NCBI GenBank assembly: GCA_037447655.1 | Contig: JBBHKE010002417.1 | Location: 1 to 64,000, forward strand | DNA: 64,000 nucleotides | Reading direction: 5' to 3' | Source of the DNA: Zygnema cylindricum | Lineage: Eukaryota > Streptophyta > Zygnematophyceae > Zygnematales > Zygnemataceae | Shown here: one piece after another, positions 1 to 53,535 of the stretch | Layout: every line of letters begins with the position of its first letter | Position numbering within the stretch: the stretch's first letter is position 1 | Program-made: the position numbers and the translations under genes | The notes under the pieces: model-generated | Told to the model about the DNA's origin: nothing | Seen by the model: the letters and a program-made list of their open reading frames with translations, nothing else | Databases searched by the model: none

Positions 1-951
1 CACGGCTTCGGCCAAGTCCGCAAGGTTTCCCTCCAAACTTGTCTTTTTGGCGATTGATGGAGTAGGGGCTTGAGGTGTGGCATCTTTTGTCGAGCTGCGC
101 CGTTCTCCGGACAGCTGGACGGTTTGCTTGAGTGTATTTGTTGTTGTGGTATTTTGGTTGCATTGGAAAAGTGTCATTTTTGGCTAAATCCGATTTTCTT
201 GGTTTTGGTTGGAAGTGCTTTACATTGCTTCGTTGCTTTTCTTTGAGATAACTCTTATAGAGAATACTTAGAAGACCTGGGAGCCTAGTGGCTACCCCAC
301 AGCTTAGTATTCTTGTCCAAAAGTCTAACTTTTCAAAAAGCTTTTATTTGAACTTAATTACAAAGAAAAAAAAGATTACAAAAAAAAGAAAACATTTTGT
401 TTTTGGTTTCTTCTTTCTTTCAATCCTTTCCTCCTATCTTGTTACCACTCTATTTCTGGGCTGCAGATTTAGTTTTGAATTTGGGTCAGATTTTAGGGTT
501 AATCTTTGGAATTAGGGTTTGGCCGCAGATTTAGGGTTTGTACGGATTTAGGATTTATTTTTTTGAATCCTTAACCCTAGGTCAGCATATTACCATTCCT
601 TAGTCGCAGATTTTGGGTTTTTACAGCGTGGAATTAGGGTTTGGGAAACCTTCTTTGCCTAATTCCACCTTAATTTGTGTCTCACCTTAAAGTGTGCTCA
701 ATGTTTCTTGTCTTCCTTTCCCTTGTTGCAAATTCCTTTGCTAGCTAGTTGATGCTTTATTTGTGGTAGATTTGATATTCTTTTTTTTTTCCGTGTACAA
801 GGCTAATCATTCATAAAACATTGCAAAATAAAAATATTTATTCAATATATTAGAATTGCACGAATTATAACATATAAATTATCATTGCTTTATAGTTGGG
901 TATAATGTGGCATAGCGCTGATACACATACCCTAGCAGGATACTAATCGCC
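1..951. other. AT-rich region without recognisable gene
   Basis: No coding region, RNA gene or element boundary can be supported here. The stretch from about 515 to 645 repeats the motif TTAGGGTTT or close variants several times within T-rich sequence. This resembles plant leader sequence or short interspersed telomere-like motifs, but there is no true tandem array. It may be the decayed 5' LTR or leader of the gypsy element that follows, but I found no similarity to that element's 3' end. Confidence 0.4.
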
Positions 952-1575
952 TTGGTGTTGAGTTGTGGTTCTGGGCACGGTTATTCAGATTGTGTTGGGG
1001 GACCACGCTTTGGCGCTCTGCAAGGCCCGACTGGAACGATCAGCCGTTGCTCACCTTTGATAATCACCAGATTATTAAAGGTGTTCTGTAAGTATTACGA
1101 TGCCTTGCGGGTGCAAGAGCGTTCCTTTGTAGTTTGGACACTCATGTAGGGGACCGGTGTGGATTGGTTCCCTTTCGAACCCGTCTTTAGCATTCGCATT
1201 TCCTGCTTTCCCTGCATGCTATCTGGCTGTGAGTGACATTGAGATTTTCCTGCACTTATCTAGAGTGGAATTGCCATCTAGATCTTGCCGTGGGTGGCAG
1301 TGTATAGGCGCTTTTGTTTGTGTTGCTTTAGATCTGCACCCGAAGGTGTCTGGATAGTTGCCTCCTTGTTCTATAGATCTTGCCCTTCGGCCTTGCCCCA
1401 CTGTTTGCATCGTAGAGGTTTTGGTATTCCGGCTCTTTGCTAGATCTAACCATCAGGTCCTGATAGTGACAACGTGTGTTGATTTGACGAGTGTGGATAG
1501 GTCTGACACGTGCTGCATCTCGGTTAGGCCGTTTGGGATATTTCGCCGTTGTAGTCTAGATTTCCCCCTTGGTTT
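952..1575. other. Probable decayed leader of the gypsy element
   Basis: This stretch precedes the first Gag-like frame. I found no primer-binding site or LTR end. Short open frames on both strands overlap each other and show no domain. Position is the only argument for assigning it to the gypsy element. Confidence 0.3.
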
Positions 1576-3053
1576 ATGCCCACGGATTGGGACAACCTTC
1601 AACATCAATCTGGATCTACCAGAGGTGGTACAATTTTTCATTCTCAGCATTTAGACCCTTTAGATTTTCCCGAATCTTTTACCATGCGCGATCCGGTTGC
1701 GGATCGCAGATCGCCGTTAGTTCGGTCTGGTCTAACATCTAGGTCATCATTATCCTCGGTTTCATCTAGGTCATACCTAGAGGGGGCGGAGGAAGACAAT
1801 TTGGAGGAATTCTTTCCAACTCCTCACACCAGTAGGTTCCCTGCCAACCCACCTTTGGCACAACCGATGCATCCTCCTTTTGATGACATGGCTTCCTCCT
1901 AAGTGGGATCCATAGGTAGGATGCAATTTTTCTTTTTTGGATTAAAGAACACCATGTCTTTATCTCAATTCCGGATGTTATACGACAAGGAAATGAGAGA
2001 TCTAGCTTTTAGATATCAGGATAGGTTTGACCTTCGTGTCGCCTTTTCCCTTCTCGGTCAATTCCTCCGTGGTACGCCCCTCACTCTCTATACCCGCAAG
2101 TACGAGGGCGTTCTTGCAATGACAGAGTACGTTACTCCCTTTGCGGGGTTACCAGAAGTCCTCGGCCAAGTGGATATTCCCTACCAAGCCGCCGAGACCG
2201 GCTGTATTAGATTCTAACGGAAACGAGTTGTATCCAGCTATCCCCGAGGTTCCTCGTCAGTATGCAGTGGCAGCCCGAGCGGCACTCCTAGCTAGAGCGG
2301 GGGGAACCATTCTTTTACGTGACCCTCTCTTCGTCATGTTTGACATTCTCCCAGAGGAGTACCGGATGCAAAATCCAGATCAGATCAAAGAGTTGATGAA
2401 CTTCGACATAGGCTTGGTGAAACTGCTCTTGCCTTGCGATCTCGGATGGAAACTCTGCGAAAGGCATTAACGAACCTTATGTCCAATGCGGAGGCTGTCC
2501 AGAAATTTGTGGGACAGTTTCCAGGTCCATCAAAGAGGTTTATCCAAAACCACCTCAGCCAGATGTATGGACTGAAATTCACCTTTGAGCAAGCGGCTCA
2601 ATACGCGGTAGAGTATGAGATGCAAACATCGTGGTGGGACGCCCATGAGCGTTCCAAATCTCCTCAGAGGGAACCGGTTAATCCATCTCCTCCTCCACCT
2701 AAAAACCCATGGCCTCCCAATAGGCCCAGAAGACGCCAGCCATGGGAACACCAATTAGTCCCGGAAACCGCATGTGTTTCCGACGTACAAAAACCGGGCA
2801 TGATGCCCGCATGTGTCATGTCAAGGCAACCACTTGCACTCATTGCCACCAAAAAGTACATTATGTTCATCAGTGCCACATCAAGGACCCTAGTTTCACT
2901 TATCAAAATCAGATAAAAGACGGGGGATTTTCGGCCCGTTCTGCGAAACAAGTCACTCCGCCTAGGGAGAACAAGAAAGAGGAAGCTCCTCCTAAGATCT
3001 CTCGTAGAGAGAGAGAGAGAAATCCGAGCTTCAAGCCACAATGGCGACCATGA
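1576..3053 (+). pseudogene. gag: Gypsy Gag polyprotein, broken
   Basis: The frame opens at 1576, has an in-frame stop at 1900-1902, and continues in the same frame to about 2217. It then shifts, resuming at 2141-2470, 2434-2916 and 2742-3053 in alternating frames. The middle section reads as a helical capsid-like domain (FGLKNTMSLSQFRMLYDKEM; later QFPGPSKRFIQNHLSQMYGL), followed by a proline-rich linker. The last section carries two zinc knuckles. The first has lost its second Cys (CFRR...GHDARMC). The second is a complete CX2CX4HX4C (CTHC...H...C). In this family Gag forms the particle and binds RNA through these knuckles. At least three frameshifts and one stop make it non-functional. Confidence 0.75.
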
Positions 3054-3119
3054 TGAAAGAGAAATTTATAGCTTTCATGGTGGAAATGAAACCCCAATTC
3101 ACTAGGATGGCCAAGACCG

Positions 3120-4266
3120 TTGTACACATGCTGTCTAACACCTATTCCTCCCATTCCTCCAGTAGCTACCAATCCTTTTGGTTTTTTCCCAATTAATAGG
3201 AATCCTCTACAGTTGAGTCCGCATACGGACGGGGTTGTTATATTACACCTACTTGCTGGGATTGGAACTTGGCTATTGTTGTTTTTACGGAATGGTCTTC
3301 TCATTCGTCAATATTATGCACTGGAAATAGATGCTATAGCTAAAAAAGCATAGCTGCACCACTGCAATCTCTTACTTTCCTAGTATCCACAACTGCTTCC
3401 AAATTTTGCTTTCCTGCATATGCACACTGCCCTTCCACAGGACATCCACATCCTTAGTAACCACCACCTACGGGATGTTGAGCCGATAGACCTGGTTTTT
3501 AGGGTGTGGGATTGCCAAGGCATGTCTCGGGTCTGCAAAAGTCTTGGTTTGGCGGATACCCGTACGAAATTATTTTTTGAACTTCTCATGATCCTTCATT
3601 TTTTTCAAAGCATAGACCGGCCTGTCGGATACATTTTGGAAAACGTGGATGCTTATAGTGATCCATGGCTTACGGCTTTGGCAGATTATAAGCGTATTGA
3701 AAACCTAATTTGACCTCCTCTAATCAATGATGCCACTCGGCATGGGTCCCAATCGAGTTTGCTCCGAATGGACAAACCTAATCGATGTCAGTCGTCTACA
3801 TGAGGCTAATTTGTCCGTAAGACCTCCCACCGTAGACATTAAGACCGTTTTACTTCCATTTCACCAAGTCCAAGCATGCGTCTTACTAAACTATTCACTT
3901 AACTACTACATCAATGTAGTCGGTCAGCCACTCAAAGTCCTTCCTACCTTAGTGTCTTATCCTTATTCACACGCATACTCGCAAACTGGCCCGGACATGT
4001 GCCGAAATAATGTCACTGGGGAGTTAGAGGAGACTACAAAAAGGGAGCATCCTATGCATTTTATTCCTGGCACAAATCTGGCCATCTACCTTATTGAACG
4101 ACAAAGGTGCACATTGTTGGGTAGAGTCATGGACCCCCAGACCTTGTCATTTGTTTTAGGTCTAGGTCTTGGAGCTGGTCGCTACGCACAAAATCATCCG
4201 TCGCAATCAGCTGGGGGGGGGGATCACATACCATCATCACATCATAGTTTTTTCGTGCTTCCCTAA
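3120..4266 (+). pseudogene. Cytosine-C5 DNA methyltransferase domain inside gypsy element, broken
   Basis: Several conserved blocks of the C5-cytosine methyltransferase fold occur in the right order. Motif I is LLAGIGT (nt 3249-3269), part of the S-adenosylmethionine site. Motif II is ALEID (EID at 3324-3332). Motif IV is DLVF...DCQGMS, with the catalytic Cys at 3513-3515 but the usual Pro of PCQ read as Asp. Motif VI is ENV (3639-3647). A motif VIII-like stretch, NRVCSEWTNL, lies near 3751. A motif IX/X-like region, LPTLVSYPYSHAY, is followed by a Glu-rich segment near 3937-4080. Motifs I to VI share one frame, broken by stops at 3351-3353 and near 3387; a stop at 3711 and a frameshift precede motif VIII. 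The domain lies between Gag and RT, so it was part of the element's polyprotein. Retrotransposon-borne methyltransferases of this class are known from charophyte and dinoflagellate elements. A captured host gene fragment is unlikely because it is flanked on both sides by gypsy coding sequence. Confidence 0.8.
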
Positions 4267-4513
4267 ACCTTTGAGGTAATCCAGTTCAGTTTTTTCTCTT
4301 TACATCTTGGACTTTCCTTCCCTCTGGAAATCACAATCTACGATTTATTTAATCCTCCTCACATGTCATGGGAGATTCCTGCCTATACCCCGGTACGGCC
4401 GCATATCCCACTTGAACAGGCACCGCTGGGTGAATTGACTGAAGAAGACATCGGTAAAATACAAGTTAGGCAACTCGCTCATCGCTAATGAGCAAATTGC
4501 GTTTTTTCAAGCC

Positions 4514-5699
4514 ATGGAAGCTTTTACCATCAAGAGTTCTGAGGCTCCAAAGTGGAAGTTCGGTTCGCGTATCACAAAGGCGGAACATGAACTATTAAGT
4601 GACACAGTCACTCGTCATATAGACGCATTTGCTTTCTCTATGAGTGACCTTGGACGTCATTCTACTTACAAAATGTCACTCGACCTTGAAGATGATCAAC
4701 CTATCTTTAAGCCAAAACATCGTCTCTTCGAAATGGAATGGGAGATGGTGGACAAAAGATGCGCAGAATTGGAAGAGTTCGGCCCAATATATCGGTCGGA
4801 TTCCACTTTTGCCGCCCCCACATTCATACCTAGGAAGAAAAATTCTGACGGCAATTTTACTGAGCGAAGAATGTGTGGGGACTATTGAGAGCTCAATGCC
4901 CAGACAGTTCAAGACCGCCACCCTATGCCTCTAGCTGAGGAAATATTTTACCATGTAGGTTGTGCGAATTTCTTTAGCGTCCTTGACTGACGTCAAGGGT
5001 TTAACCAGATTGAAACCGAGGAAAGAGATACACATAAAATTGCATTTTGGGGTAGTGATGGCAGATGGGAATGGGGAGTCATGCCCTTCGGTCTTAAGAA
5101 CGCACCAGCGGTGTTTAAAAAAGTCATGGATTCGGTGCTAGGTGGATGTAAATTTGCTCGGTGCTACATTGATGACTTGATAATTGCTTCCGCCAGAGTG
5201 GAAGAGGACGCCCACCTTATTGAGTGGGTTCTCACCGAGTTAAAAAAAGTCAGGCTGAAGTGTCACCCAGCCAAGTGTACTTTCGGTGCGGAGGGAGTGC
5301 CGTACCTCGACCATTTTATGTCGGCAGAGGGCATCACTCCTTTGGAAGCTAAGGTAGAGGGGATCACCAAATTGCCGGCCCCTACCGATCTCACTAGTCT
5401 GAGGGCTTTCCTTTGACTAGCGAATTATTACCAACTATTTGTACTGAATTTTAGTACGATTGTTTTTTGTCTCAATTACCTTCTCAAAAAGGAAATGCCT
5501 TTTGTTTTGGGACCCGCCCAAGTAGAAGCATCTCAATAACTGAAAACCGCCCTTTCTAGTGTTCCCATTCTCGACCTCCTAACCACAAGCTTTCATTTTG
5601 CTTACAAACGGATTTCGGGAAGCCAGGCATTGCAACCATTTTAACGCAGAGATAGCTGAATGGAGAGGAATACGTGGTGGCATACCTCAGCCTGAGCAA
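4514..5699 (+). pseudogene. pol: Gypsy reverse transcriptase and start of RNase H, broken
   Basis: The frame from 4514 reads the RT fingers region (FKPKHRLFEMEWEMVDKRCA; FAAPTFIPRKK; MCGDY). After a stop at 4886-4888 it continues with a recognisable palm: NFFSVLD, then a stop in place of the next residue, RQGFNQI, and HKIAFWG. From 5081 MPFGLKNAPAVFKKVMD leads into the catalytic YIDD box, the LKCHPAKCTFG segment and the thumb (YLDHFMSAEGI...LRAFL). A stop follows at about 5414 and degraded RNase H sequence (HFAYKR, about 5590) runs to the LTR inserted at 5700. RT copies the element RNA into DNA. The catalytic aspartates survive but the frame carries several stops. Confidence 0.85.
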
Positions 5700-6893
5700 T
5701 GTTGAAATTTAAGTATTTTCTAGGTCTAGAGATTGTAAAATAAAAAGGCAAAAAGGGGACACTGACAACCTACCTCTAACTCTTCACTCAAGTCCCCACA
5801 CTTGTCGCAGTCATTGAAGACTTGAAGAGGAGTTAGATCCATGGCTGCCTAGGCTGTCCAAAGTGGACATGAAGGCAATTCTTAATAGAGTTATCTAAAA
5901 GGTGTGACGGACCCAGGATTTGATCATGGTACCTGCCTTCCGTCAAACTAGCTGTTCGATTTAAACCAACAAGTCTAAATATAGTGCTAGAGTCCAATAG
6001 GTTTGACAAATATTTATATTTGTACACGTAGACTAGTTCCTCTAACGGAAATAGATACGTAATGCATCGATACAGTTTTGTATAGTACGGAGTACGATTT
6101 AATGTATTTTATGAAACGGATACCGTGCATTTGTTTCGAACGCGAAACAAATATCGCACGTATATTTTCAACGGCTACAATTGTATCTGGTTTGATCAGA
6201 CGGCCACGATAGGCGCCGCGATCACGGATTATGTACTTTTGGCGTTTTTTAGTCATCGCCACGTCATGTGACACGTGGCGCGACAATGTTGGATTGCGGC
6301 GACTCCGGAGATTGCGGTAACAAATCCGGCTATGACACGTGTCGACATTTTGGCCATGTTGTATAATGGCCGTACAGAAAGTACACTGGTACATGTACTT
6401 TTCTAGTACGACACACTAATTTGATTGGTGCCGTACTTCAGTAGATAGAGTTTTAGAGAGGGAATAGGACTTAGAAAATTTTGGGTAAGTAGCTTCCTCT
6501 CCCAGAGAGCACCTTGTATAAATGGCAAACTTTGGCCAGCCATATCTATCAATTTACTTGACCATTTTCAGTGATTCTTTTTACTGCGGACTCAGGGGAG
6601 TCCAAGCTACATAGGGACGTAGTCGGTCAAAGTTTTTGTCTGCCAGGGTGGCGGTATTTCTAAGGGAAAGTCAAAGTGGGTGAATGTGTCCAAATCTCAT
6701 ATTCTAACTTTGCATTCTGTGGTGGAACTGACCACACAGAAAGTGTTATTTCACAGGGGTGAATCTATATTTGGGTGTTGATTGTCAAAGGGTCAGTCAT
6801 TTGGGTTTATATCAACTTGGAGTCGGCACTATCTAGATAAGCTTCTTTTTGGATCTGCTTACTGTGAGGGCCAATGGAGGTCTTAGAGTTTCA
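5700..6893 (+). mobile_element. Solo LTR of the A-type copia superfamily, inserted in gypsy RNase H
   Basis: The segment begins TGTTGAAATTTAAG, then TATTTTCTAGGTCT, and ends GGTCTTAGAGTTTCA, matching both ends of the A-element LTRs. Inside are the U3 hairpin (arms 5776-5794 and 5818-5836), the palindromic motif CCATGGCTGCCTAGGCT, a degenerate antisense tRNA-like stretch near 5905-5960, G-boxes (CACGTG), a TATA box (TATAAATGG, about 6518) and the R-U5 hairpin GGACTCAGGGGAGTCC near 6588. The gypsy RNase H reading resumes directly after it. No clean target duplication is visible (agcaa against ataac), so the insertion is old or the ends are altered. Recombination between two LTRs would explain the absence of internal sequence. 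Confidence 0.75.
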
Positions 6894-7213
6894 ATAACTG
6901 AGCTTATTACAGCAGTTAAAAGGGTGAATGTCTCGCCTCGGTATGGGGTATTGTCCATTTCTAACATTATCTTTATGGCAAGCCATTCACTCTCCTAACT
7001 AACCATCAACCCTTTCATTGGTTGATGACCAACAATAAGCTTTCAGGGAAGCTTGCACGTTGGGCTTTAATTTTACAAGAATACGACTTTGAGATCATCC
7101 ATCGGCTCGGCTTGCTAAGCTTGAATGCCGACGGGATTTCCCTAAATCCACTACGTCGGACCAGCGATAACGAGGTCCGAGAGGATTTTGACAATGACGA
7201 TGTTCCGGCCATG
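6894..7213 (+). pseudogene. pol: Gypsy RNase H C-terminal part, broken
   Basis: Reading resumes after the solo LTR with a degraded stretch (TELITAVKRV), then from 7022 the segment KLSGKLARWALILQEYDFEI, followed by HRLG and NADGIS. This is the usual end of gypsy RNase H, before the linker to integrase. The enzyme removes RNA from RNA-DNA hybrids. The catalytic part was separated by the LTR insertion and carries stops. Confidence 0.75.
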
Positions 7214-7319
7214 TCAGCTAGTTCCTATATTACTTACTGTCTCTCTTATATTCCCCATCCTCAGCTGGCCACAGATCCCTCGCGTGACGGCACATTAATT
7301 CTCTTCCTCTCAACTTAAA

Positions 7320-8556
7320 CCTTCTGGCCGATAATACAACCGAGGAGGAAGACCGAGTAAAGAAACGAGCCAAAAATTACCTGTGGCTTGGCGGATCTTT
7401 AGTTTGACTGTTGGCGGAGAGCAGTCATGGGCATGTCCCTCGGCCAACCGAGCGCTTTTCCTTGATCGAGCAGATTCATACCGAGCTCAGACATTACGGG
7501 ACCAAGCGTATTTTGAGCCTGGCACAGGTACGCTATTAGTGGTCCGAAATGCAAGCGGATTTGGCGGCTATTCTCCACAAATGTGCCACGTGCGATCGGT
7601 TACGCACCTCTTTCTCTAATTGGCAGGTGTCTCTACATCCGTTGCCCATCAAAGGATTGTTTTATCGCTGGTTTGTGGATCTCGTCGGACCATTTCCTCT
7701 CTCTCGAAAGGGGAAATAATACATCATGATCATGATCAAATTTTTTAGCACGTGGGTAGAGGTGGTCGCTCTTCCCTACAAGACGGCTAAATTAACCAAC
7801 GCTGCTTTTAAAAAGCACGTTCTCATGCGTTATGGGGCTCATGTTGAGGTTCTTACTGATGAAGGTACGGAGTTCCAAGGGGAAGTTTAAGAGATGTTGG
7901 ATGAAGCTTTAATTGATTATCGCTGGACGAGTCGTGATCACCCACAAGCCGATGGCTTGGCGGAACGAGCTGTCTAGACTTTCAAACGGGCTCTCCGAAA
8001 ACATTGATTAGAGAAACACATCTCCATCTGGGACAAATCCTTGGGCTATATCATCATGGGATAACGGATGTCCGTAAAGGGTTGTTTCGCTAATTTTAGC
8101 CCGTACAATATTCTCTTTGGTCGAGCACCCTTGCTCGGTCAAAATAGTCAAAAGGCGGCAAGTTTACCTTTGCCTCTAATGTATGACGTTATATTTTTGG
8201 AAGACTTGACTCAAAAGTTTTTGCTTTTCGCTTGTGATATGCCTATGGCTGTTGACAATTTGCAAATAGCCCAGCATAGAGATACATTAAGGTTCGCCTC
8301 CACGCGGAGTGGCAATTACAAGCCACAACAAAAATCTTACGGGGTCGGCGATTACGTGTACTTCCGACGACAGTCTTTCAATACTTTGGACACAAATGTT
8401 TTATCACACATTCTCCGTGTGGTGGAGATAGATGCTAACGCAATGTTGGGTTTGCAAGGTGCGGATACAAAGACGATACGAGAGCATTCGAAGAACCGTG
8501 CACCTTGCTACTTACCTGATTTGTCACAAAATATGAACCTGATGCGGATGCCGATC
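7320..8556 (+). pseudogene. pol: Gypsy integrase, broken
   Basis: An eroded H2C2 zinc-binding region is readable in changing frames at about 7465-7620, including HKCATCDRLRTSFSNW. The core then follows: FVDLVGPFP (first Asp), LTDEGTEFQG (second Asp) and HPQADGLAERAV (Glu), giving the DDE triad order. Several stops interrupt it, near 7718, 7888, 7976, 8006 and 8060. A longer frame from 8068 covers the post-core region (PYNILFGRAPLL; YGVGDYVYFRR), which matches the GPF/DYV-type C-terminal segment of gypsy integrases. The enzyme inserts element DNA into the genome. This copy cannot make it. Confidence 0.8.
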
Positions 8557-8703
8557 AACGAGGCAACGGAGTGTACTATCAGCAAACGAGTAGATCGCGA
8601 GACTTCCATGCTTTTGTGCGACCATTACAACCAGGGGTTCCACATAGAGTGTTTAGTTCCTCCATTGACTGTTGTGCCAGGTAGCCATTAGTTCTGCCAT
8701 GGC
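8557..8703 (+). pseudogene. PHD-finger-like domain at the end of gypsy integrase, eroded
   Basis: The last part of the frame reads a Cys, then MLLCDHYNQGFHIECLVPPL and VVPG, followed by a stop and FCHG. The spacing fits a PHD finger (C4HC3): MLLCD, GFH and CL.PPL...VP are typical, and the trailing Cys is expected after a Trp or Phe. Two of the early Cys ligands appear changed (Ser and Tyr). PHD fingers bind histone H3 tails. Its position at the integrase C-terminus is where many plant gypsy elements carry a chromodomain, so a targeting role is a reasonable inference. Confidence 0.65.
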
Positions 8704-8753
8704 TATCGTGAGCTGCTGGCGGTTTTGACCAGCTCCTCCGCTGGCTACGGAGC

Positions 8754-8774
8754 TAGGGGGGGGAATTATAGGGG
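8754..8774 (+). promoter_or_regulatory. Probable polypurine tract of the gypsy element
   Basis: A run of A and G with eight consecutive G (GGGGGGGGAATTATAGGGG) lies just after the end of pol. This is the expected position of the primer for plus-strand DNA synthesis immediately before the 3' LTR. The exact LTR start is uncertain because the 5' LTR was not found for comparison. Confidence 0.5.
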
Positions 8775-8974
8775 CCACTTCACTCTAGGGGAGTATTTTT
8801 CCCTTCTCCCTCCTTTGGTCATTTTCACCTTTATTCTTTGTCTGATGTATATACATTTTTCTCTTTCTCATTCATTTTTGGTTTGTATATATGTTTGTCC
8901 GCTGTCTAGTTATGATGCATGATTTCCTTGCTTCTCTCTTTTGCACGACAACTGTCATGGCGCATGGTATCAAA

Positions 8975-9119
8975 GTCACGCGTGCACGATATTTCGCACG
9001 CATGCATATTATTGTGCAAGCGCGAGCAATATTTGACTCGCGCGCACGATATCATGCACGCGCGCACGATATCACGCACGCGTGTATGATGTTTCTCATG
9101 CACGAACGAAATTGTGCAC
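8975..9119 (+). repeat. Tandem palindromic repeat, CGCACGATATC type
   Basis: Short units of about 18-20 bp built on CGCGCACGATATCATGCACG are repeated with variation. Each is near-palindromic around GATATC. The array continues on the far side of copia A1, at 15592-15665, showing it was one block before A1 inserted. It lies in the putative 3' LTR of the gypsy element, presumably in U3. Confidence 0.65.
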
Positions 9120-9124
9120 GGGGG

Positions 9125-10180
9125 TGTAGAAATTAATGGTTCATTTTTAGTATTTTCTAGGTCTAAATAGAAATATAGAAAGAAGCCGAGGCAGTCTACC
9201 TCTAACTTCTCTCTCCAACTCTCAAACTTGTCGTAGTCACTGAGAAATTGGAGAGGGAGCTAGAGCCATGGCTACCTAGGCTATCCAGAGGTTTACGAGA
9301 AAATATATATTAGTTAGGTGTTTATTTACTAAAAGGTATGTGCCGGCCACATGATTTGATCCTGCTACCTACCGGCCGGCAGTCAGCCGATAGCCGGTAG
9401 CCTTAGCCGTTAAGTGTAAGAGTAGTGTTACGTATTATATGGTATGATAATTAATTAAACATTAATACGTAGGATAATTCATTTAACTGTAACTGTTTAC
9501 GGAACACATAGATCTGGTAATGTAATAGTACGGATTACGGTACGGATAAGAAATCAATTTCGCGCATTGATTTCGTAAGCGAAACAAATACCGCGCATGT
9601 ATTTATTACGGCTACGATCAAATGTGAATTTAATCGGACGGCCGGAAATAGCGCCGAGATCGCGGAAGAAGAATTCGGCGGTTTGTGGGCATCTTCACAT
9701 CGGATGACACGTGGCGAAATGACATTGGAGCGCGGCATCTCCGAGGATTAAAGGAGCGAATCCGGACATACCACGTGTGGACATTTAGGCAATGTCGTAC
9801 AGTGTCCGTACATAAAGTACACCGGCAGCTGTACTTTTGCGTACGGAACTGTAATCTGATTGGTTCCGTACATCAGTAGATAGAGTCTGTGAGAGAGATA
9901 GGACTTAGAAAAATTAGAAGATAGGACCCTCTCTCCCAGAGAGCTTCTGTACAAAAGGTCAACTTTGACCCTCCATAACTTACTGCTCAGGGGAGCAAAT
10001 TCAGAGACTCTTTTTGCTATCGACTCAAGGGAGTCTTGCCTTCACAAGGGTGCAGGTGGTCAGAGTTTTTGTCTGCCAAGGTGGCAGTTTTTTTTGCTGA
10101 AACACAAAGGGGTCAGGATTATCCTAGAGGCTTCTTAGAAGCTGTCCACTCTGAGGACTTATGGAGGTCTTAGAGTTTCG
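9125..10180 (+). repeat. A1 5' LTR
   Basis: Features in order are TATTTTCTAGGTCT near the start; a U3 hairpin (arms 9200-9224 and 9241-9265) with loop ACTTGTCGTAGTCAC; the double palindrome AGCCATGGCT and CCTAGG; an antisense tRNA-like stretch (9341-9418); G-box motifs ACACGTGG (about 9708) and CCACGTGTGG (about 9770); a TATA-like GTACAAAAGG near 9950; and R-U5 hairpins TGCTCAGGGGAGCA (9984-9997) and GACTCAAGGGAGTC (10022-10035), followed by CTGCCAAGGTGGCAG. The Gag start codon (10161) lies 20 bp before the LTR end. Confidence 0.9.
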
Positions 10181-11300
10181 GGTTATGGGCCCACCCTCTA
10201 GGGTACCAATATTTAATGGAACTGGCTTCATATACTCGGAAAGTATGATGATAGGAGCTCTATGCGAAAAAAGGTTTTGGGAGATAGTGAGTGGACGATT
10301 GGGGCGTCCATCAAGTCTTAGAATTCCTCCAGGGTTTAGAGGAAGCAGATTCACTAGGAAAGAGGATCCACCTTCAACGGAGGAAACAAAAGAAGGAGAG
10401 GTGGTGGACAAAGGAAAGGAGAAGGAGGCGACCACACCTATAGCAACTGGTTCGGCATTCATGTCACCTATTCCAAGGAACGAGGAGAATGATACTGAAA
10501 CCTGGGACTTCAACAATATGGCGGCAAAGCACTTCATCCTACGCCATCTCACTCAAGGACTTGCATGTCCTCATTTGCAGGTAGAAAGGGCATCCGATCT
10601 TTGGATGGCTCTTATAGAGATGTACCGAAGTGGTACGATTCAGCAACAACAGTTGGCTGATCAGAAAGTTAAGGAGTATGTATACAAAGGGGGAAATATG
10701 TTGGATTTTTGCAATGAGCTTGCTACACTCTTCATGGAGCTAGAGAGTGCGGGAAAAGATTTTAGCTAAAAAGAAAAGGTTAACTGTTTACTGATGAAGT
10801 TACCCGATGAGTTCGAGAACATAGTCAACCGTGTGCAGGACTTGCCGGACTCAAGGTGGATATGGAACTCAGTGGTAGGGATGATTCTTGTTCGGGAGAA
10901 TACGGTTGAGATCCGAAGGGGAGGAAAGAGTGGTCAAGCCTAAGCAACAGCGACTGATTGGAGGAACAAGGATTCTCGGAAACCGGTCAGAAACTATGGG
11001 GGGAGGGAGCAAAAAAATCAGACCGACGAGTTTGGACCAAGGGCTCCCAAAGGTTTATGTCATTTTTGTAAAAAACTTGGGCACTATATGGCAGAGTGCA
11101 CTAAGTTAACCTAGCTTCGGTTAAAGGAGGGGCAGACCGGTGGTACCCAGAGAGGAAAGAAAAAGGCCCTTGTGACACAAGTACAGGAGGCGGAATCCGA
11201 GGACGAGGACGATGAGCTCCTTTTAGATGAGGAGTTAGAGGCAAAAAACGAGGTCGAAATTCCACGAAGGCAGAAATGTGCTTACGGTGGATTGAAAGGT
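10161..11300 (+). pseudogene. gag: A1 Gag, broken
   Basis: The start codon lies in the LTR and the frame runs through the primer site (encoding RVMGPPSR here; QVMGPPSR in the sister copies) into PIFNGTGFIY. A capsid-like region follows (HLQVERASDLWMALIEMYRS; GNMLDFCNELATLFMELES). The first frame stops at about 10767. Downstream sequence carries a further frameshift near 10890-10940, then the zinc knuckle CHFCKKLGHYMAEC (CX2CX4HX4C, about 11061) and an acidic stretch with many Glu and Asp. Gag builds the particle and packages RNA. At least two stops and one shift break this copy. Confidence 0.85.
10181..10194 (+). promoter_or_regulatory. A1 primer-binding site, half-tRNA-iMet type
   Basis: GGTTATGGGCCCAC directly follows the 5' LTR. 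It is the exact complement of GTGGGCCCATAACC, the anticodon arm of plant initiator tRNA-Met as I know it. It is not complementary to a tRNA 3' end, as would be usual (TGG...). This fits priming by a cleaved half of the initiator tRNA, as known for Drosophila copia. Confidence 0.85.
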
Positions 11301-11301
11301 G

Positions 11302-12830
11302 AAGCAGGCTAGATTGTAGATTCAGGTGCCTCCATGCACATGTGTAAGGATAGGCACCTGTTCACTAAGATAAGAAATATTCCCACCGTAGAGATAGAGT
11401 ACGGGGATGGGAGGATAGTCACCACTACTCCTTTAGGATCGGTAGATTTGAAAGTGTTAGTGGAAGGAAAGACATCCATAGTAACATTCTCCGATGTATT
11501 GTTTATTCCGGAGCTGAACAAAAACCTCATCTCTACATCCGTATTAGATGATAAGGGTTTTGTTTACTAGCACTAGGGAAGGAGTCTTTACTGCTAGTTT
11601 TGAGGAGGATGTCTATTTCATTGCCGAGAAAGGTAGCCATGGGATGTTTAGGCTGGTTTTAAGTAATGAAAAGAAGAAACTTTATTATGCTAGTGTTCAT
11701 GATATTATGATGTGGCATAAGATGCTTGGGTATGTGAATCTAGACAAGTTAAGAGAGATGAAAAAGATGGGAGTGGTGGAAGGGATTCAGTTCAGTGAGA
11801 GTGATAATATTAGTGATTGTAGTGGATGTGCTCAAGGTAAAACACACAGATTACCCTTTCCTAAAACAACCACCTATAAGGGAGAAAAAATTCTAGATCT
11901 ATTACACACAGATATTTGGGGACCGGCTAGAGTGCCCTCACTGGGGGGGGAAGAGATTTATGATGACTATTACTGATGATTGGTCTCGGTATTCCCGAGT
12001 TTATTTTTTGAAAAACAAGTCCGAAGCTTTCGATTGTTTTAGACAATATAAAGCATGGAGCGAAAAACTCCATGAAACTTCAATCAAGAGAATAAGGAGT
12101 GACAATGGTAGAGAGTATACTTCTAACCAGTTTGAGGATTTTTTGAGGGAAGATGGGGTCCAACACCAAAAGACAGTTCCTGAAAACTCGGAACAGAATG
12201 GGGTAGCTGAAAGGTTAAATAGAACACTAAGTGATAGTGCTAAAAGTATGTTGTCAGATAAGAAGATAGGAAAAAGGTTTTGGGCAGAAGCAATGAACTG
12301 TGCTAATTACCTCAAAACTAGAGTTCTTACTTCAGCTATAAAAGATCAAACACCTTATGAGAGATGGACAGGCCGGAAACCAGACATATCTCACTTAAAG
12401 GTTTTCGGCAGTCAAGTATTCAGTCTAGATACTGATCGGTCCAATTGGAAGCTAGATCCTAAAGGAAAACCGGGATACTTATTAGGATATGATGAGGATG
12501 TTAAAGGATATAGAGTTTATGATCTAAAAAGGGAAGATATAATCTTAGTAAAGCATCTAGTAGTTATGGATGAAGGAAAGTCTGTGGATCCCTTCAAATA
12601 TACGAAGTCAGTAAAAATCAGATTTGAGTCAAAAATTTTTGATGACTTTGAGCTTCCTAACTATCCAAGTTTTAGAGAAGATGGCATTCTTGCAGGTACA
12701 AATCAGACCGAAAAGGACTCGGCTGTGGAAACTAGTGACAACTCTACCCGAAGCGGAAGACGTGGTGGAAATTGATTCGGAATCAATGGATAGGGGAGAA
12801 GCCGAGTTTGTTTGAAAGAATCCACGAGAA
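11302..12830 (+). pseudogene. pol: A1 protease and integrase, broken
   Basis: The aspartic protease motif DSGAS is preceded by a stop at about 11311, where the sister copies read Trp. MHMCKDRHLF then follows. From 11548 comes the GAG-pre-integrase region (MMWHKMLGYVNLDKLREMKK) with the zinc-binding CSGCAQGKTH, then HTDIWGPA (first Asp). A G-run at 11942-11949 causes a frameshift. The core continues from 11960 with RSDNGREY (second Asp; Gly-to-Arg next to it) and EQNGVAERLNRT (Glu). The distal part (KVFGSQVF; GYDEDVKGYRVYD) is the copia post-core domain. The frame ends near 12776 and 12815 by stop and shift. Confidence 0.85.
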
Positions 12831-12956
12831 CCATCTATTCCGACCTCAGATTTTGAGGGGGGAAGGAGAAGCAGCAAAAGACTGCAAGAAAAACAGGTTA
12901 ATAACAAGGTAACTAAACTATCTCATCAAGATGAACCTCAAACTTATGAAGAGGCG

Positions 12957-14492
12957 ATGACTTGTCCAGAAAGAAATCGGTGGAAGACAGCCATCAATGA
13001 GGAGATGGCCTCAATTATGGCAGCTGATACTTCGGAGCTGGTGGATTGTCCACCTAACCGAAAACCAATCGGTTGTAAGTGGGTTTTCAAATTAAAACTG
13101 AACCCAGATAACACAATCGAGCGCTACAAGGCCCGACTAGTGGCAAAGGGATTTACACAAAAGGAGGGAATTGACTACGAGGAAACCTTTGCCCCGGTGG
13201 TCAGATTTCCCTCCGTCTGCATACTTCTCAGCTTGGCAGCAGCGAAAGACATGGAATTGCACCAGATGAACATCAAAACCGCCTTTTTGCATGGAGAATT
13301 GGAAGAGGAGATCTTCATGCGACAACCCGAAGGGTTTGTGGAGGAAGGAGAGGAGAGTAAGGTATGCTGGCTGATTAAATCTCTTTATGGTTTGAAATAG
13401 GCGCCTCGACAATGGAATAAGAAACTTGATGAGTTTCTTACTGGTCTGGGATATATCCGGATCAGCTCAGATCACTCAATCTATGTTTTCGAAGATGAGG
13501 AAGGTTTTATATTTATTGCAATTTATGTTGATGATTTGCTTGTTTTAAGTAAATCAATGGAAAAAATTAATAAACTGAAAACCGATCTTAAGGGGAGATT
13601 TGAAATGAAGGATATGGGGGAAGCAAAATAAAATTTGGGAATTCAAGTAGAGAGAGACCGAAAAAGGAAAATTATAAGATTGACTCAAAAGGAAGCAATA
13701 GGGAACATGTTTGAAAAATTTCAAATTGATAAAACTAATAGTCGTACAACTCCAATGGAGTTGAAGAAGGGAAGTGAGGGGAGTGAGGAAGAAGGAGTCA
13801 TAGTCTTAGATGAGGAATTATCTCCTGAAGAACAGAAGTTCATGCAGACTATTCCTTACAGGCAAGTAGTGGGAAGTCTAATCTATTTTATGAATTGCAC
13901 CCGGCTGGATTTAGATGCAGCTGTAGGAGTGCTGATTAGAAGTCTAAATGCTCCCACTAAGAGGGATTGGGAGGCAGCTAAGAGAGTCTTTAGATATTTG
14001 ATAGGAACTAGGGATCTATGGTTGCATTTGGGTGGGGAAAATACTGACATCACTACTTGGAGTGATGCCAGTTATGGTGATGCTCCGATGAGGAGATGCA
14101 CATCTGGATATGTATTATATGTGGGTGATGGGGCTTCCTGTTGGAGTAGCAAACACCAAAAAGTTATTGCTCAGTCCACCATTGAGGCTGAGTATATGGC
14201 CTCTTGCTCTGCTGTAAAAGAATTGATGTGGGTCAAGTCTTTGCTTGGTGAGCTTAGTCACCTTAAGAGTGGTGTGCAGAAAATTTTTTGTGATAATCAG
14301 GCAGCAATCGCTATTTCTGCCAATCCTAAACATCATTTTAAAGCCAAACACATGGACATCAGACTCAGCTTTGTTAGAGAGAAAGTAGAAAACAAAATAA
14401 TCAGTTTAGAGTACAGACCAGATAGTGAGATGGTAGCAGATATGATGACCAAACCTGTGCCTTCCCCTAAGCTAATTTTTTGCAGGGAGTAG
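12957..14492 (+). pseudogene. pol: A1 reverse transcriptase and RNase H, broken
   Basis: The RT region opens with RYKARLVAKGFTQKEGIDY and ETFAPVVRF, followed by QMNIKTAFLHG (motif A, Asp changed to Asn at the catalytic position) and SLYGLK. A stop at about 13398 stands where the sister copies have Gln. The catalytic box YVDDLL is at about 13527. A stop near 13629 precedes the thumb and RNase H, which is open from 13635 to 14492. RNase H shows WSDASYGD, EAEYMAS and CDNQAAIA, which hold its acidic residues. The loss of the motif A Asp and the stops make the enzyme inactive. Confidence 0.85.
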
Positions 14493-14515
14493 TGTGGTCT
14501 GAAATTAAAGATTGA

Positions 14516-14566
14516 CTAGAAAATAAGGGGAGTGTAGAAACTAATGGTTTTATTAGTATTTTCTAG
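14516..14566 (+). promoter_or_regulatory. A1 polypurine tract and bracketing inverted repeat
   Basis: The polypurine tract AAGGGGAG immediately precedes the 3' LTR start at 14533. Arms CTAGAAAATA (14516-14525) and TATTTTCTAG (14557-14566) are perfect 10-bp inverted repeats on either side of it. The loop therefore contains the tract, the LTR terminus TGTAGAAA and about 20 bp of U3. Confidence 0.75.
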
Positions 14567-15586
14567 GTATGAAAAGAAATATAGAAAGAAGCTGAGGCAG
14601 TCTATCTCTAACTTCTCTCTCCAACTCTCAAACTTGTCGCAGTCACTGAGAAGTTGGAGAGGAAGCTAGAGCCATGGTTACCTTGGCTATCCTGAGGTTT
14701 ACGGGAAAATATATATTAGTTAGGTGTATGTTAACTAAAAGGTATGTGCCGGCAATAGGATTTGATCCTGGTACCTACCGGCCGGCAAACAACCTGTAGC
14801 CGGTAGCCTTAGCCGTTAAGTCTAGAAGTAATGTTACGTACTATATGGTATGATAATTAATTAAACATTAATACGTAGGATTATTCATTTAACTGTAACT
14901 GTTTACATGACACATAGATCTAGTAATGTAAAAGTACAGATTACGGTACGGATAAGAAATAAATACCGCGGATTGATTTCGTAAGCGAAACAAATACCGC
15001 GCATGTATTTATTACGGCTACGATCAAATGTGAATTTAATCGGACGGCCGGAAATAGCGCCGAGATCGCGGAAGAAGAATTCGGCGGTTTGTGGGCATCT
15101 TCACATCGGATGACACGTGGCGAAATGACATTGGAGCGCGGCATCTCCGAGGATTAAAGGAGCGAATCCGGACATACCACGTGTGGACATTTAGGCAATG
15201 TCGTACAGTGTCCGTACATAAAGTACACCGGCAGCTGTACTTTTGCGTACGGAACTGTAATCTGATTGGTTCCGTACATCAGTAGATAGAGTCTGTGAGA
15301 GAGATAGGACTTAGAAAAATTAGAAGATAGGACCCTCTCTCCCAGAGAGCTTCTGTACAAAAGGTCAACTTTGACCCTCCATAACTTACTGCTCAGGGGA
15401 GCAAATTCAGAGATTCTTTTTGCTATCGACTCAAGGGAGTCTTGCCTTCACAGGGGGGCAGGTGGTCAGAGTTTTTGTCTGCCAGGGTGGCAGTTGTTTT
15501 TGCTGAAACACAAAGGGGTCAGGATTATCCTAGAGGCTTCTTGGAAGCTGTCCGCTTTCAGGACTTATGGAGGTCTCAGAGTTTCA
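14533..15586 (+). repeat. A1 3' LTR
   Basis: It is closely similar to the 5' LTR over its whole length with scattered substitutions and a length difference of about 2 bp, and it carries the same hairpins, tRNA-like stretch (about 14741-14822) and G-boxes. It ends GAGTTTCA at 15586, followed by target duplication GGGGG. Confidence 0.9.
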
Positions 15587-15591
15587 GGGGG

Positions 15592-16192
15592 CGCGTTATT
15601 CAACGCACGCGCACGATATCATGCAAACACGTACGATATCGTGCACGCACGCACGATATTTTGAAATGAATTTTATTCGCAGATGCGAAGTTTCTTCGAT
15701 TCACTTATTTTTGACGTGCGTGCGATTCGTGTGCACGTTTAATTGAAATGTAATAATTTAGTGCGAGACGTTTCATTTTATGCCTAGGTATTGGGATTTC
15801 AAATATTTTGTGCGGTATGATTGGTTCCCTGCGTACGCACGCCATTTTGAAGCATGGACGTGGAGTATTGTTAGGAGTTGAATCGCGATTTCCGGGCGAC
15901 GCTTCGATACACCATTTATTTATTTAGGTCGTGAACCCATGTAGGTTTGCGCATACACGTAGTTAGGGAGGATTTTTACCCTCGGATGGTGGATTTTATC
16001 AAGCGAACGACAAATGATGTTGGGTGCCCATTAGCCAACATCTTATGTAGTTTCATGTGTGTAAAGTAGGCTAGACGTAGGCTTGTTTTGCTTAGGCCTA
16101 GCGTAGCTCCTACTTAAGCTAATTGTCAGACTTAGGGAATTTTATCTTTTGGACAAGAATTTTCTCTTGGCGGCGGAGCAGTTTTATTGCTT
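15592..16192 (+). other. Continuation of gypsy 3' LTR region or flank
   Basis: The first 75 bp resume the CGCACGATATC repeat cut by A1. The rest has no coding frame or recognised motif. It ends where a truncated B-type LTR begins (TTTGGACGGTC, about 16193). The true end of the gypsy element was not found. Confidence 0.4.
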
Positions 16193-16811
16193 CATTTTGG
16201 ACGGTCAAGATTCGTTTGACGGAATTTGTAAGACTTGTAATATTTAGCAATGTTTTGTCCTGTATATTAATTATTAGTGTAGATCTCATGTACACTCACA
16301 TTAATTGAGGCAGTTGATTGATTACGTACGGCTGGTTTGCCTTCGTACAGTTAGTAGTAAGTTGTAGTGTATATTTGTAGGACTTAGTCATTTTTAGACT
16401 AAGGGAACACTTGGACAGAAACTGTTTTTCTACTCTTTTTTGGGAGTTTCATCTAAGAATTTCTCTCAGTTCTATTGGCAAATTTATCTGATAGTTTGCA
16501 TGTGTGTTACTCCTTCAATTGGAAATATTGGGGCAAATTTGCAGACCTATCGTGCGTTTGATGTGCTCGGGGCTTCATCGTGAAGTTGGTTAGGTTTATC
16601 AAAGTTCTGGCAGGCTGTTTTTCTGAAATTTTGTCTGGGTAATGCGAAAATTCCGGTTGGTGTATTTATATGAAAATTTTTAGGGATACGTAGTGGCCTA
16701 GAAACTATCTGTTTGTGAAGTGTCAGCTTGTTTTGGTAATTCTGTAGAATTCTGAGTGGAATCAAATTAGGCTGTTTTGGGGTAGTTTGTGGTGCTTCCG
16801 AGGTTACATTC

Positions 16812-18235
16812 ATGGCTGAAAATGCTTCAAACCAACAGGTTATGAGCCTACGCCTATGGCTACCTATATTGGATGAGTATTACTTACTCATATTTGATGG
16901 ATCTAACTATTATTACTGGAGGAGTATGATGGAGAGCTTCTTTAGGAGGAGGGAGCTGATGAGTGTGGTGGATGGGACATGTATCAAATCATCGCGTGGG
17001 TGGGAGGAGAAGAACGATGAGTGCTTGATGATTATCAAGCTGTGCTTGACTGAGGAATTTGTAATGATGTTTTAAAAATGCAGCAGAAATATGGAATGAT
17101 TTAGAATGTACGTATCAAAAGACTTTAGTGTATCATTGGATGATTAGTGTAACCAAAATAGTTGACTATAAGTATGTAGGAGGTAGTATGGTGGAATACT
17201 GTAATGGTCTACAAGTATTATTTGTAGAAAATGCCTTGGCAGGAGGAAGCTTTACCGATGCTCAACAAGCTCTCTTTTTAATGAGAGGCCTACCTAAAGA
17301 ATTTAAAAGTGCATTTGATAGATTGGCTCGGACTGATAAAAAGGATTGGAACCTAACTTTAGCAATCAGATTTGTTTTAGAAGAAGAGGGTTATAAAGAA
17401 TCTCTAAATGATCGGGGGAATTTTCAGGGTGTTAGATCACAGTTTCAGAAAAATAGAGAAAATTGTCAATCTGAAAACTGCTTTTATTGTATTACTCAGG
17501 GCATGCTTTCAGGGTATGTCCATCATATAAAAGTGCATGTCTCACAGAAAATTTCAGAGAAGGGTGGGACAAGAACCGAGTTGAGCCCCCTATACAAAGG
17601 CCACAGAATGCATTTACTAATTCGAGGAAATATTGTGAAGACAAAAGGGTTACACCTTCTTTCGAGAAAATTGTTTATTTGCCGACCGTCATTTTTGGAA
17701 ATATGGAGAACGAAGACGGAGGGGGAAAAAGAATTGGCACCGAAGATGGTGTGGAGGAAAAGGAGACAGAAAAAGACGCAAATTTTGAAACTTTTTTTGG
17801 TGACAGATTGGTGAGTGAAAAATGCTTACAAGAGGGAGAGTTAAGTTAAGCAAAATGAGTTGGAGGAAGAGATGGGGAAGTGATAGTGGAACAAAAAATA
17901 ATGTGGATGTGGGATTTAATGACCTTAGAGAAGGAGAGAGGAAAAATGTTCAGAAAATTGGTGTAAGAGAGGGAGTTAATAACTTTGGAAAACAAAATAA
18001 AACTGCAAAAATTGGAAAAATAGGAAAAGAAAACCAGAATAAGAGATTAGTGAAGAAAAAGGCACGAATGAGAATTCGTGACATTAAAAGGATAGAAAAC
18101 GGTGACAAAGATGTAAACTTACAGAAAACACAAAAATTCATTAAGAAAGCAAAGAAAACATGCAGGACTCAAAGGATCACTAGTAGAAGAAAACAGGTTC
18201 AGAAGGTGGTAAAAAGAAGACGGCGTAAGAATTGA
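16812..18235 (+). pseudogene. gag: Element B Gag-like protein with basic tail, broken
   Basis: The start codon at 16812 lies 26 bp inside the 5' LTR and the frame runs through the primer site (QQVMS). The N-terminal block reads FDGSNYYYWRSMMESFF. A stop and shift at 17073-17128 precede VGGSMVEYCNGLQVLF, FTDAQQALFLMRGLP and DKKDWNLTLAIRFVLEEE, a copia-type capsid region shared with D and H. The zinc knuckle is split by a frameshift near 17485 (CFYC in one frame, GHAFRVC in another). An acidic section with GDRLVSEK (about 17800) follows, and then a Lys/Arg-rich tail ending KVVKRRRRKN at 18235. H has the same tail. No enzyme domain follows. The tail could bind nucleic acid or act as a nuclear signal; this is inferred from composition only. 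Confidence 0.75.
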
Positions 18236-18408
18236 TTTTATAGAGGATATTCTTGGAGGAAATGGAAGATATGGAGGCAGGCAGCTGAGGGAGTGGTGAC
18301 GTCAGTGAAAGCGGTGGTGACGTTTGAACGAAAAGGAAGAAGGGAGGAAATTTGAAGGTACGGAAAGGTACAACTATATTTCACACGCGGTATATTTTGT
18401 TCCGGATC
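18236..18408 (+). other. Element B non-coding 3' internal region
   Basis: There is no open frame. It contains repeated GGTGACGT(C/T) motifs (about 18295-18320) and leads to the polypurine tract. C1 and C2 have a comparable purine-rich stretch before their tracts. Confidence 0.5.
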
Positions 18409-18458
18409 CACGAAACTAAAATTTCCGGGGAGTGTTGGTTTGAAAAGTTAGTTTCGTG
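18409..18458 (+). promoter_or_regulatory. Element B polypurine tract with bracketing inverted repeat
   Basis: The tract CCGGGGAG ends at 18432 and the LTR starts TGTTGG at 18433. Arms CACGAAACTAA (18409-18419) and TTAGTTTCGTG (18448-18458) are perfect 11-bp inverted repeats, extendable with mismatches through AAATTTC and GAAAAG. The downstream arm is the beginning of U3. Confidence 0.75.
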
Positions 18459-19380
18459 CGTGCGTGACATTTCGTGCATACACAATGTTTCGTGGGTACA
18501 GTACGCTACTCTAATGCTATCTTGATTTACTGTGGAGGTTCGAATTAATTTGGGAATTGGGGGAGTAATGGTACTAATTGTTTTGGGATGAACGTTATTA
18601 TTTGTGTGGCGCGAACAAAACGTAAGGAAAGGTATGAAATATGTAAATGTACGGTTCTCGATCCGATTTGGAATGTTTTTGAAGAAGTACGCCGCCGGTA
18701 CGGACTAATTTGGATGGAGTGACGTCATTTCGCCAAGTGGATTTTGGTGAGTATGCTTTCACTACATCAAGGGTGCCGAAGAAGAGCAACGTACGGCAGC
18801 GCCGTCAGTTTGGTGAGGGACGCTATATCACGTCCATCACATGATATTTATTTTGGACGGTCTAGATTCGTTTGACGAAATTCATAAGACTTGTAACTAT
18901 TTAGTAATGTTTTGTCTTGTGCATTAATTATTAGTGTAGATCTCAAGTACACTCACATTAAATGAGGTAGTTCATTGATTACGTACGGCTGGTATGCCTC
19001 CGTACAGTTAGTAGTAAGCTGTAGTGTATATTTGTAGGACTTAGTCATTTTTAGACTAAGGAACCTTTATTTGTAGGACTTAGTCATTTTTAGACTAAGG
19101 AACCTTCTTGGACATTTCTGCTCCTTTTGGGAATTTCATCTGAAAATTTCTCTTAGTTCTATTAGTAGAATTATCTGAAATTTTGCATGTGTATTTCTCC
19201 TTGTATTGGAAATATTGTGAAAGATTTTCATATTAATTATGCGTCTGATTTGCTTGGGGCTTCAATGTGAAGTTGGTCAGTTTTATCAAAGTTCTGGCAA
19301 GCAGTTTTTCTGCAACTTTGACTGAGTGATGCGGGAATTCTATATGGTAAATATATATTAATATTTTTGGGGGTACTTAG
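18433..19380 (+). repeat. Element B 3' LTR, left part
   Basis: It starts TGTTGGTTTGAAAAG, then repeats of TTTCGTGCGTGCG and relatives. From about 18851 it matches the 5' LTR of B (TTTTGGACGGTC...). A 51-bp stretch (TTTGTAGGACTTAGTC...) is tandemly doubled at about 19028-19105. It is interrupted at 19380 by C1 (TSD CTTAG, 19376-19380). Confidence 0.85.
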
Positions 19381-53523: not shown

Positions 53524-53535
53524 ATGCCAAAGCCT

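Follow-up and report, generated by a model that had tools for sequence, protein, structure and literature searches.

The segment between 1.9 and 8.7 kb of the window, the 64,000-nucleotide stretch of Zygnema cylindricum DNA analyzed here, is almost certainly (probability about 0.97) one decayed Ty3/gypsy retrotransposon comprising Gag, a C5 cytosine methyltransferase (MTase), reverse transcriptase (RT), RNase H, integrase, and a degenerate PHD finger. The earlier note on this DNA had proposed a fossil gypsy element with an internal cytosine methyltransferase, and this proposal is supported by two predicted proteins, P0124 and P0001, which are collinear with the window. Its account of the MTase core stands; it missed the PHD-like C-terminus, the absent protease, and the extent of the element, which reaches at least from 1918 to 8697 and is thus wider than the 3120..4266 considered there. 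Gypsy elements carrying DNMT3 are already known, namely KnitGypsy-Dnmt3 from Klebsormidium nitens (PMC5890265), and DNMT3s embedded in streptophyte and dinoflagellate retrotransposons are also mentioned elsewhere (PMC12344493).

Results

Identity and extent of the element

The features assigned to the element, together with the insertions foreign to it, are listed in Table 1. P0124 (ENA), a single predicted protein with the order Gag-protease-MTase, is collinear with the window at 1918-2670, 3189-3767, and 3739-4170, and P0001 (ENA), a single predicted protein with the order MTase-RT-integrase-PHD, is collinear with it from the C-terminal part of the MTase through 8697. Since each of these relatives is one protein, Gag, MTase, and RT are parts of one element, and the origin of Gag and RT from different insertions, named in the earlier note as one of the findings that would overturn it, is rejected. 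The gypsy-type order of RT, RNase H, and integrase is present in the window. RT, which shares 60-62% identity with P0001, matches PF00078 with 60.8 bits on 4991-5416, and its YIDD motif is read at 5165-5176. Of the Gag zinc knuckles and the YIDD motif described previously, the latter and the second knuckle were recovered; the first knuckle proved degenerate.

Table 1. Features of the gypsy element and of the insertions it carries (window positions).
Feature	Position	Strand	Evidence and remarks
Gag region	1918..2670	+	tblastn, P0124 residues 8-256, 33% identity, E 3e-24; internal frame changes
Gag zinc knuckles	2775..2876	+	frame 2 translation; degenerate at 2775, intact CX2CX4HX4C at 2835-2876
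MTase, N-terminal part, DNMT3-like; motifs I, II, IV (W-D-C-Q), VI (ENV)	3189..3767	+	P0124, 40% identity
MTase, C-terminal part, other frame; WTNL, motif X-like	3739..4263	+	P0124, 39% identity, to 4170
RT	4538..5572	+	P0001, 60% identity, E 2e-134
RNase H, first part, interrupted by insertion	5572..5700	+	P0001, 58% identity
Inserted Copia-type LTR, foreign to gypsy	5700..6893	+	about 69-71% identity to other Copia LTRs in the window
RNase H, second part	6908..7204	+	P0001, 65% identity
Integrase, PHD-like C-terminal end	7327..8697	+	P0001 residues 786-1243, 50% identity, E 2e-139
Degenerate PHD finger, some zinc ligands lost	8572..8706	+	PF00628, 21.6 bits, E 2.3e-4, under cut-off 24
Whole Copia in the gypsy 3' part, foreign to gypsy	9125..15586	+	LTR pair 94.8% identical; GGGGG on both sides

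The methyltransferase and its class

The MTase starts at about 3189-3225 and ends at about 4170-4263. The order of motifs I, II, IV, VI, and VIII-X-like reported previously was confirmed from the translations, which run in frame 2 and then in frame 0: LLAGIGT (3249-3269), EID, W-D-C-Q-G (3507-3521, with the catalytic Cys-Gln at 3513-3518), and ENV (3639-3647) lie in the former, and WTNL (3769-3780) and the motif X-like LLGRVMDP (from about 4114) in the latter. In the C5-MTase profile search that the earlier note had suggested, PF00145 (DNA_methylase) matched 3225-3713 with 26.0 bits (E 7.6e-6) above the curated cut-off of 22, and it matched the relatives P0124 and L005 with 36.6 and 45.9 bits. 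A profile of related gypsy-borne MTases matched three of 1510 window pieces, ordered along the model (2-42, 55-162, and 180-322; E 5.1e-8, 1.2e-25, and 6.9e-26). It matched nothing in the reversed window and 20 shuffles, which together supplied 34159 control pieces. Two DNA methyltransferase families in PHROGs also matched the MTase (E 2e-6 and 3.5e-6), as did dcm in NCBIfam with 23 bits, under its cut-off of 100.65. The C-terminal piece (3724-4263) alone gave no family match in Pfam, NCBIfam, or PHROGs, Rfam gave no match, and a protein search with the N-terminal piece alone yielded nothing at E 0.001 among 33 candidates.

As judged by sequence comparison, the enzyme is closest to DNMT3. Against solved structures, the window MTase piece matched DNMT3A (E 5e-4) and DNMT3B (0.01), with DNMT2 as the next methyltransferase (0.73). 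A profile built from eight relatives scored DNMT3A/B with up to 80 bits, followed by M.HaeIII (41), 4onj, titled 'DNA methyltransferase' (39), M.HhaI (38), DRM2 (36), and a tRNA methyltransferase (33); neither DNMT1 nor CMT occurs as a chain name among the 57 chains listed at E 0.01. DRM is disfavored as the class, since the MTase is unpermuted, its matches following the model in sequence, and DRM2 matches only profile positions 2-130, near the end of the DRM2 chain. In the MTase tree, the window lies nearest to P0001 and P0124, in no starred set, and the single host DNMT3A row sits on a long branch. The DNMT3-like MTase of the window fits, by these comparisons, the class reported for Klebsormidium gypsies (PMC5890265).

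The residue preceding the catalytic cysteine

In C5 methyltransferases the catalytic cysteine is usually preceded by proline, and membership of the profile does not require this residue. The window has aspartic acid at this position (WDCQ), and relatives in which motif IV is readable carry WECQ (15/29) or WPCQ (14/29), Closterium near-copies counted. The earlier note had left decay and a lineage trait side by side as explanations of the change from proline. Because relatives carry glutamic acid or proline at this place, aspartic acid is likelier to be a small step from the former than a product of decay from the latter; it is therefore probably a lineage trait, as far as the aligned sequences indicate, and decay from PCQ is disfavored, given that WECQ relatives exist. 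Neither WECQ nor WPCQ forms one clade in the MTase tree, on which six changes fall, two of them forced. Eight aligned relatives, of the WECQ as well as the WPCQ type, show no variation in Cys-Gln, ENV, or the motif VIII RxR.

Decay and nested insertions

The window copy is dead, as stop codons, frame changes, the protease that was not found, and Copia-type insertions show. Two of the Gag pieces read (1918..2670) contain stop codons, and further ones lie in the N-terminal part of the MTase (3), RT (4), RNase H (3), and integrase-PHD (8). The stretch of P0124 that contains its protease (residues 257-844; LVDTGA at 614) had no window match at E 1e-3, and only about 0.3 kb separate the last zinc knuckle from the MTase; the missing aspartic protease is taken as a deletion in the window copy. 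In the search for terminal repeats, comparison of 1-1800 with 8600-9125 or 15580-20000 gave only short matches at chance level, and the left end of the element may lie outside the window.

The Copia-type LTR that splits RNase H is about 1.2 kb long, and inspection of its ends revealed no clear target duplication. Downstream of the whole Copia, the 3' part of the gypsy element probably resumes (15592-16800), as judged from its repeats, and its 3' end beyond this insertion was not found. Positions 9030-9094 match 15597-15661 with 77% identity, the GCACGATAT-type repeats of 8940-9119 continuing beyond the Copia into 15592-16800. The LTR pairs of the three Copia copies in the window are 94.8, 97.4, and 99.1% identical. 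Comparison of sites at 33012-35078 and 50737-54651 (both minus strand) and 11667-11771 (plus strand) revealed an in-frame TAG at the same place in two copies, the surrounding 105 bases being identical, and AAG in the third. Given the identity of the LTR pairs, the copies bearing this stop seem to have transposed.

The PHD finger

At the place corresponding to the degenerate finger of the window, P0001 has a full PHD (PF00628, 44.7 bits), and the cut-off of 24 is likewise exceeded in P0007, P0088, and L005. A regular PHD pattern was found in 17 of the 131 fetched proteins. The best matches of the P0001 finger are Lid, KDM5A, KDM5B, and Jumonji/ARID 1D, followed by CHD4. KDM5 PHD1-type fingers read histone H3 without K4 methylation.

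Relatives and breadth of the family

By profile, 39 of the 131 fetched proteins contain a whole or partial MTase, which lies upstream of the pattern-found RT motif in 22 and downstream of it in five (P0041, P0056, P0063, P0088, and P0130), the RT motif not being found in the remaining 12. Among the five, Pfam places the MTase of P0088 between RNase H and integrase, P0041 and P0130 have it between RT and PHD, and P0056 and P0063 end at or shortly past it. Two Marchantia polymorpha proteins with MTase and RT, P0036 and P0044, are annotated only as hypothetical or reverse transcriptase.

The RT tree was built from 88 of 123 usable rows (35 were left out) and midpoint-rooted for drawing only; MTase labels for P0003, P0010, P0028, P0037, P0050, and P0056, and PHD labels for P0006 and P0008, were assigned manually on the basis of partial profile matches or visual inspection, and a row labeled as having neither domain may merely lack the other open reading frame (ORF), so that this label is no proof of absence. 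The window groups with P0001, P0002, P0003, and P0031 (SH-aLRT 99). One branch (SH-aLRT 99) divides the rows into sets of 52 and 36: MTase, PHD, or both occur in 44 of the former, and of the latter 35 have neither domain and the remaining one (P0053) has a PHD pattern. The 52-row side includes Closterium and Marchantia elements with MTase, as well as Calypogeia and Klebsormidium elements (P0029 and P0043) with neither domain in the pieces analyzed. P0043, a K. nitens gypsy, thus falls on the window side with no MTase in its 838 residues, and its identity with KnitGypsy-Dnmt3 is not established. The spread of relatives over green algae, a liverwort, and environmental samples suggests that the family is old.

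Viral contigs scanned with the window piece gave no locus, and those scanned with the pol alignment gave none in 28 stretches; the MTase alignment yielded four weak loci from five stretches (L001-L004), which were used solely as outgroup. From the genome contigs, one of 41 stretches was kept, L005 (1-8206), a gypsy element with MTase, PHD, and open frames on a contig labeled as the MAG of a Synechococcales cyanobacterium; because it carries a gypsy element, L005 is probably a eukaryotic contaminant. Its first ORF (3-3491), already open where the contig begins, encodes Gag, a protease (weak, under the Pfam cut-off), and, at its end, the MTase. After a TAG, a second ORF (3492-6635) continues in the same frame with the PHD preceded by RT, RNase H, and integrase. 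CAATCA directly downstream of the TAG conforms to the readthrough motif CARYYA (PMC4132726), a fit that a single site would show by chance once in 512 cases if all bases were equally frequent. If this predicted readthrough junction is real, the MTase would be made at the level of Gag in the L005 branch. In P0001, of the window's own branch, MTase and pol share one frame.

Discussion

The element of the window resembles KnitGypsy-Dnmt3 in being a gypsy with an unpermuted DNMT3-class MTase inside the polyprotein (PMC5890265). It differs in that the word PHD is absent from the main text of that report, figures aside, and in that the repeats of KnitGypsy-Dnmt3 are described as DIRS-like, whereas no terminal repeats were found in the window, the two being compared by description only (PMC5890265). 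SymbioDIRS-Dnmt3 and SymbioLINE-Dnmt from dinoflagellates are likewise retrotransposons with a cytosine methyltransferase, but they are DIRS and LINE elements, and the acquisition by gypsy is treated as independent (PMC5890265). Chromoviruses close a Ty3/gypsy integrase with a domain of the histone-reading type; this is, however, a chromodomain and not a PHD finger, and no methyltransferase is named in the abstract (PMC3605345). Ginger1 has a gypsy-type integrase with added C-terminal domains, including a PHD in one listed family, but it is a DNA transposon, and its PHD accompanies an Ulp1 domain (PMC2836005). Plant DNMT3 is treated in PMC6453930. Within the literature searched, subscription papers, figures, and supplements aside, we found no report of a PHD beside DNMT3 in gypsies or of DNMT3-bearing gypsies in Closterium or Marchantia. 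Nor did we find there the motif IV without proline, the two MTase positions, or a branch of the RT tree that unites elements of Closterium, Marchantia, Calypogeia, and Klebsormidium, and the words PHD, methyltransferase, Klebsormidium, and Marchantia are all absent from the main text of a survey of plant LTR elements (PMC6317226).

In working relatives, the enzyme would be part of the particle polyprotein and hence present where cDNA is made, and it could methylate the new copy or the insertion site de novo. The PHD may steer integrase to chromatin without H3K4 methylation, as suggested by the best matches of the P0001 finger, so that new copies would be directed into quiet host chromatin, or given its appearance, by writer and reader acting jointly; alternatively, the benefit may be the protection of cDNA from recognition. 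We regard this mechanism of de novo methylation with PHD guidance, derived from sequence comparison, as falling just short of an even chance; when identity and mechanism are taken jointly, we favor them on balance. Among 145 non-independent pairs from 18 rows, including the window and L005, mean identities are 41.4% for MTase and 47.0% for RT (r 0.83), and this tracking of RT identity by MTase identity argues that the MTase has been kept in use. De novo methylation of CG has been reported for DNMTs of retrotransposons, and self-methylation of cDNA has been suggested (PMC5890265). Counted against the mechanism are the greater drift of the window MTase than of its RT (27-36% versus 35-50% identity over 17 pairs), the absence of the motif IV proline from the window and over half of the readable relatives, the window PHD below the Pfam cut-off, the MTase tree, in which the window joins no starred set and the host DNMT3 enzymes have one row, the inactivity of one tested LINE DNMT on DNA in yeast, and the land-plant-like methylome of Klebsormidium (PMC5890265 for the last two).

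The sequence in which the domains are joined bears on whether the MTase belongs to the element at all. It might be a fragment of a host DNMT gene caught by chance between pieces of different elements, a reading to which the nest of insertions in the region, one a Copia-type LTR and one a complete Copia element, and the terminal repeats that were not found lend some color. We reject it as very improbable: P0124 joins Gag to MTase and P0001 joins MTase to RT, integrase, and PHD, both collinearly with the window, and an RT motif follows the MTase in 22 of 39 MTase proteins and precedes it in 5.

Granted that the enzyme is part of the element, its role could differ from that proposed above. Where motif IV has an acidic residue instead of proline, as in WECQ relatives and the WDCQ of the window, this would fit a changed substrate, and RNA methylation has been raised for the LINE DNMTs of dinoflagellates (PMC5890265), so the enzyme might have been kept to bind or methylate element RNA or as a structural binder. 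The invariance of the catalytic and motif VIII residues in both motif IV types, and the rank of DNMT3A/B over tRNA methyltransferases (80 versus 33 bits), make such a non-DNA role unlikely, though less so for WECQ enzymes. Less likely still is a role in trans on the host or in restraint of the element, in which an enzyme made abundantly with Gag would silence copies and lower harm to the host. The MTase of L005 closes the first ORF ahead of the TAG, and P0122, P0123, and P0125-P0129, available as proteins only, terminate shortly past the MTase, so production at the level of Gag is possible; restraint is also named as one possibility in PMC5890265. Against it stand the six relatives with MTase and RT in one ORF (P0004, P0005, P0008, P0022, P0030, and P0034) and the same Klebsormidium methylome (PMC5890265).

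Hosts normally use silencing marks against such elements, and they have a DNMT3-plus-ADD logic of their own. More tentatively than the mechanism itself, we propose that one old gypsy lineage of green algae and land plants combines DNMT3 as writer with a PHD that reads H3 lacking K4 methylation, and may thereby have rebuilt the DNMT3-plus-ADD logic in one mobile polyprotein, turning silencing marks to its own targeting or shelter. Its enzymes would be working C5 methylases with an acidic residue for the motif IV proline, placed at either of two positions, one upstream of RT and the other between RNase H and integrase.

Among elements that carry the silencing enzyme of their host, one charophyte gypsy and several from dinoflagellates had been described (PMC5890265). 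With MTase-bearing relatives in Closterium, Marchantia, and environmental samples, the family looks wider; the writer is often accompanied by a probable reader of chromatin, and both the catalytic motif and the position of the enzyme vary within it. As relatives with open frames exist, whether a transposon gains from self-methylation becomes testable.
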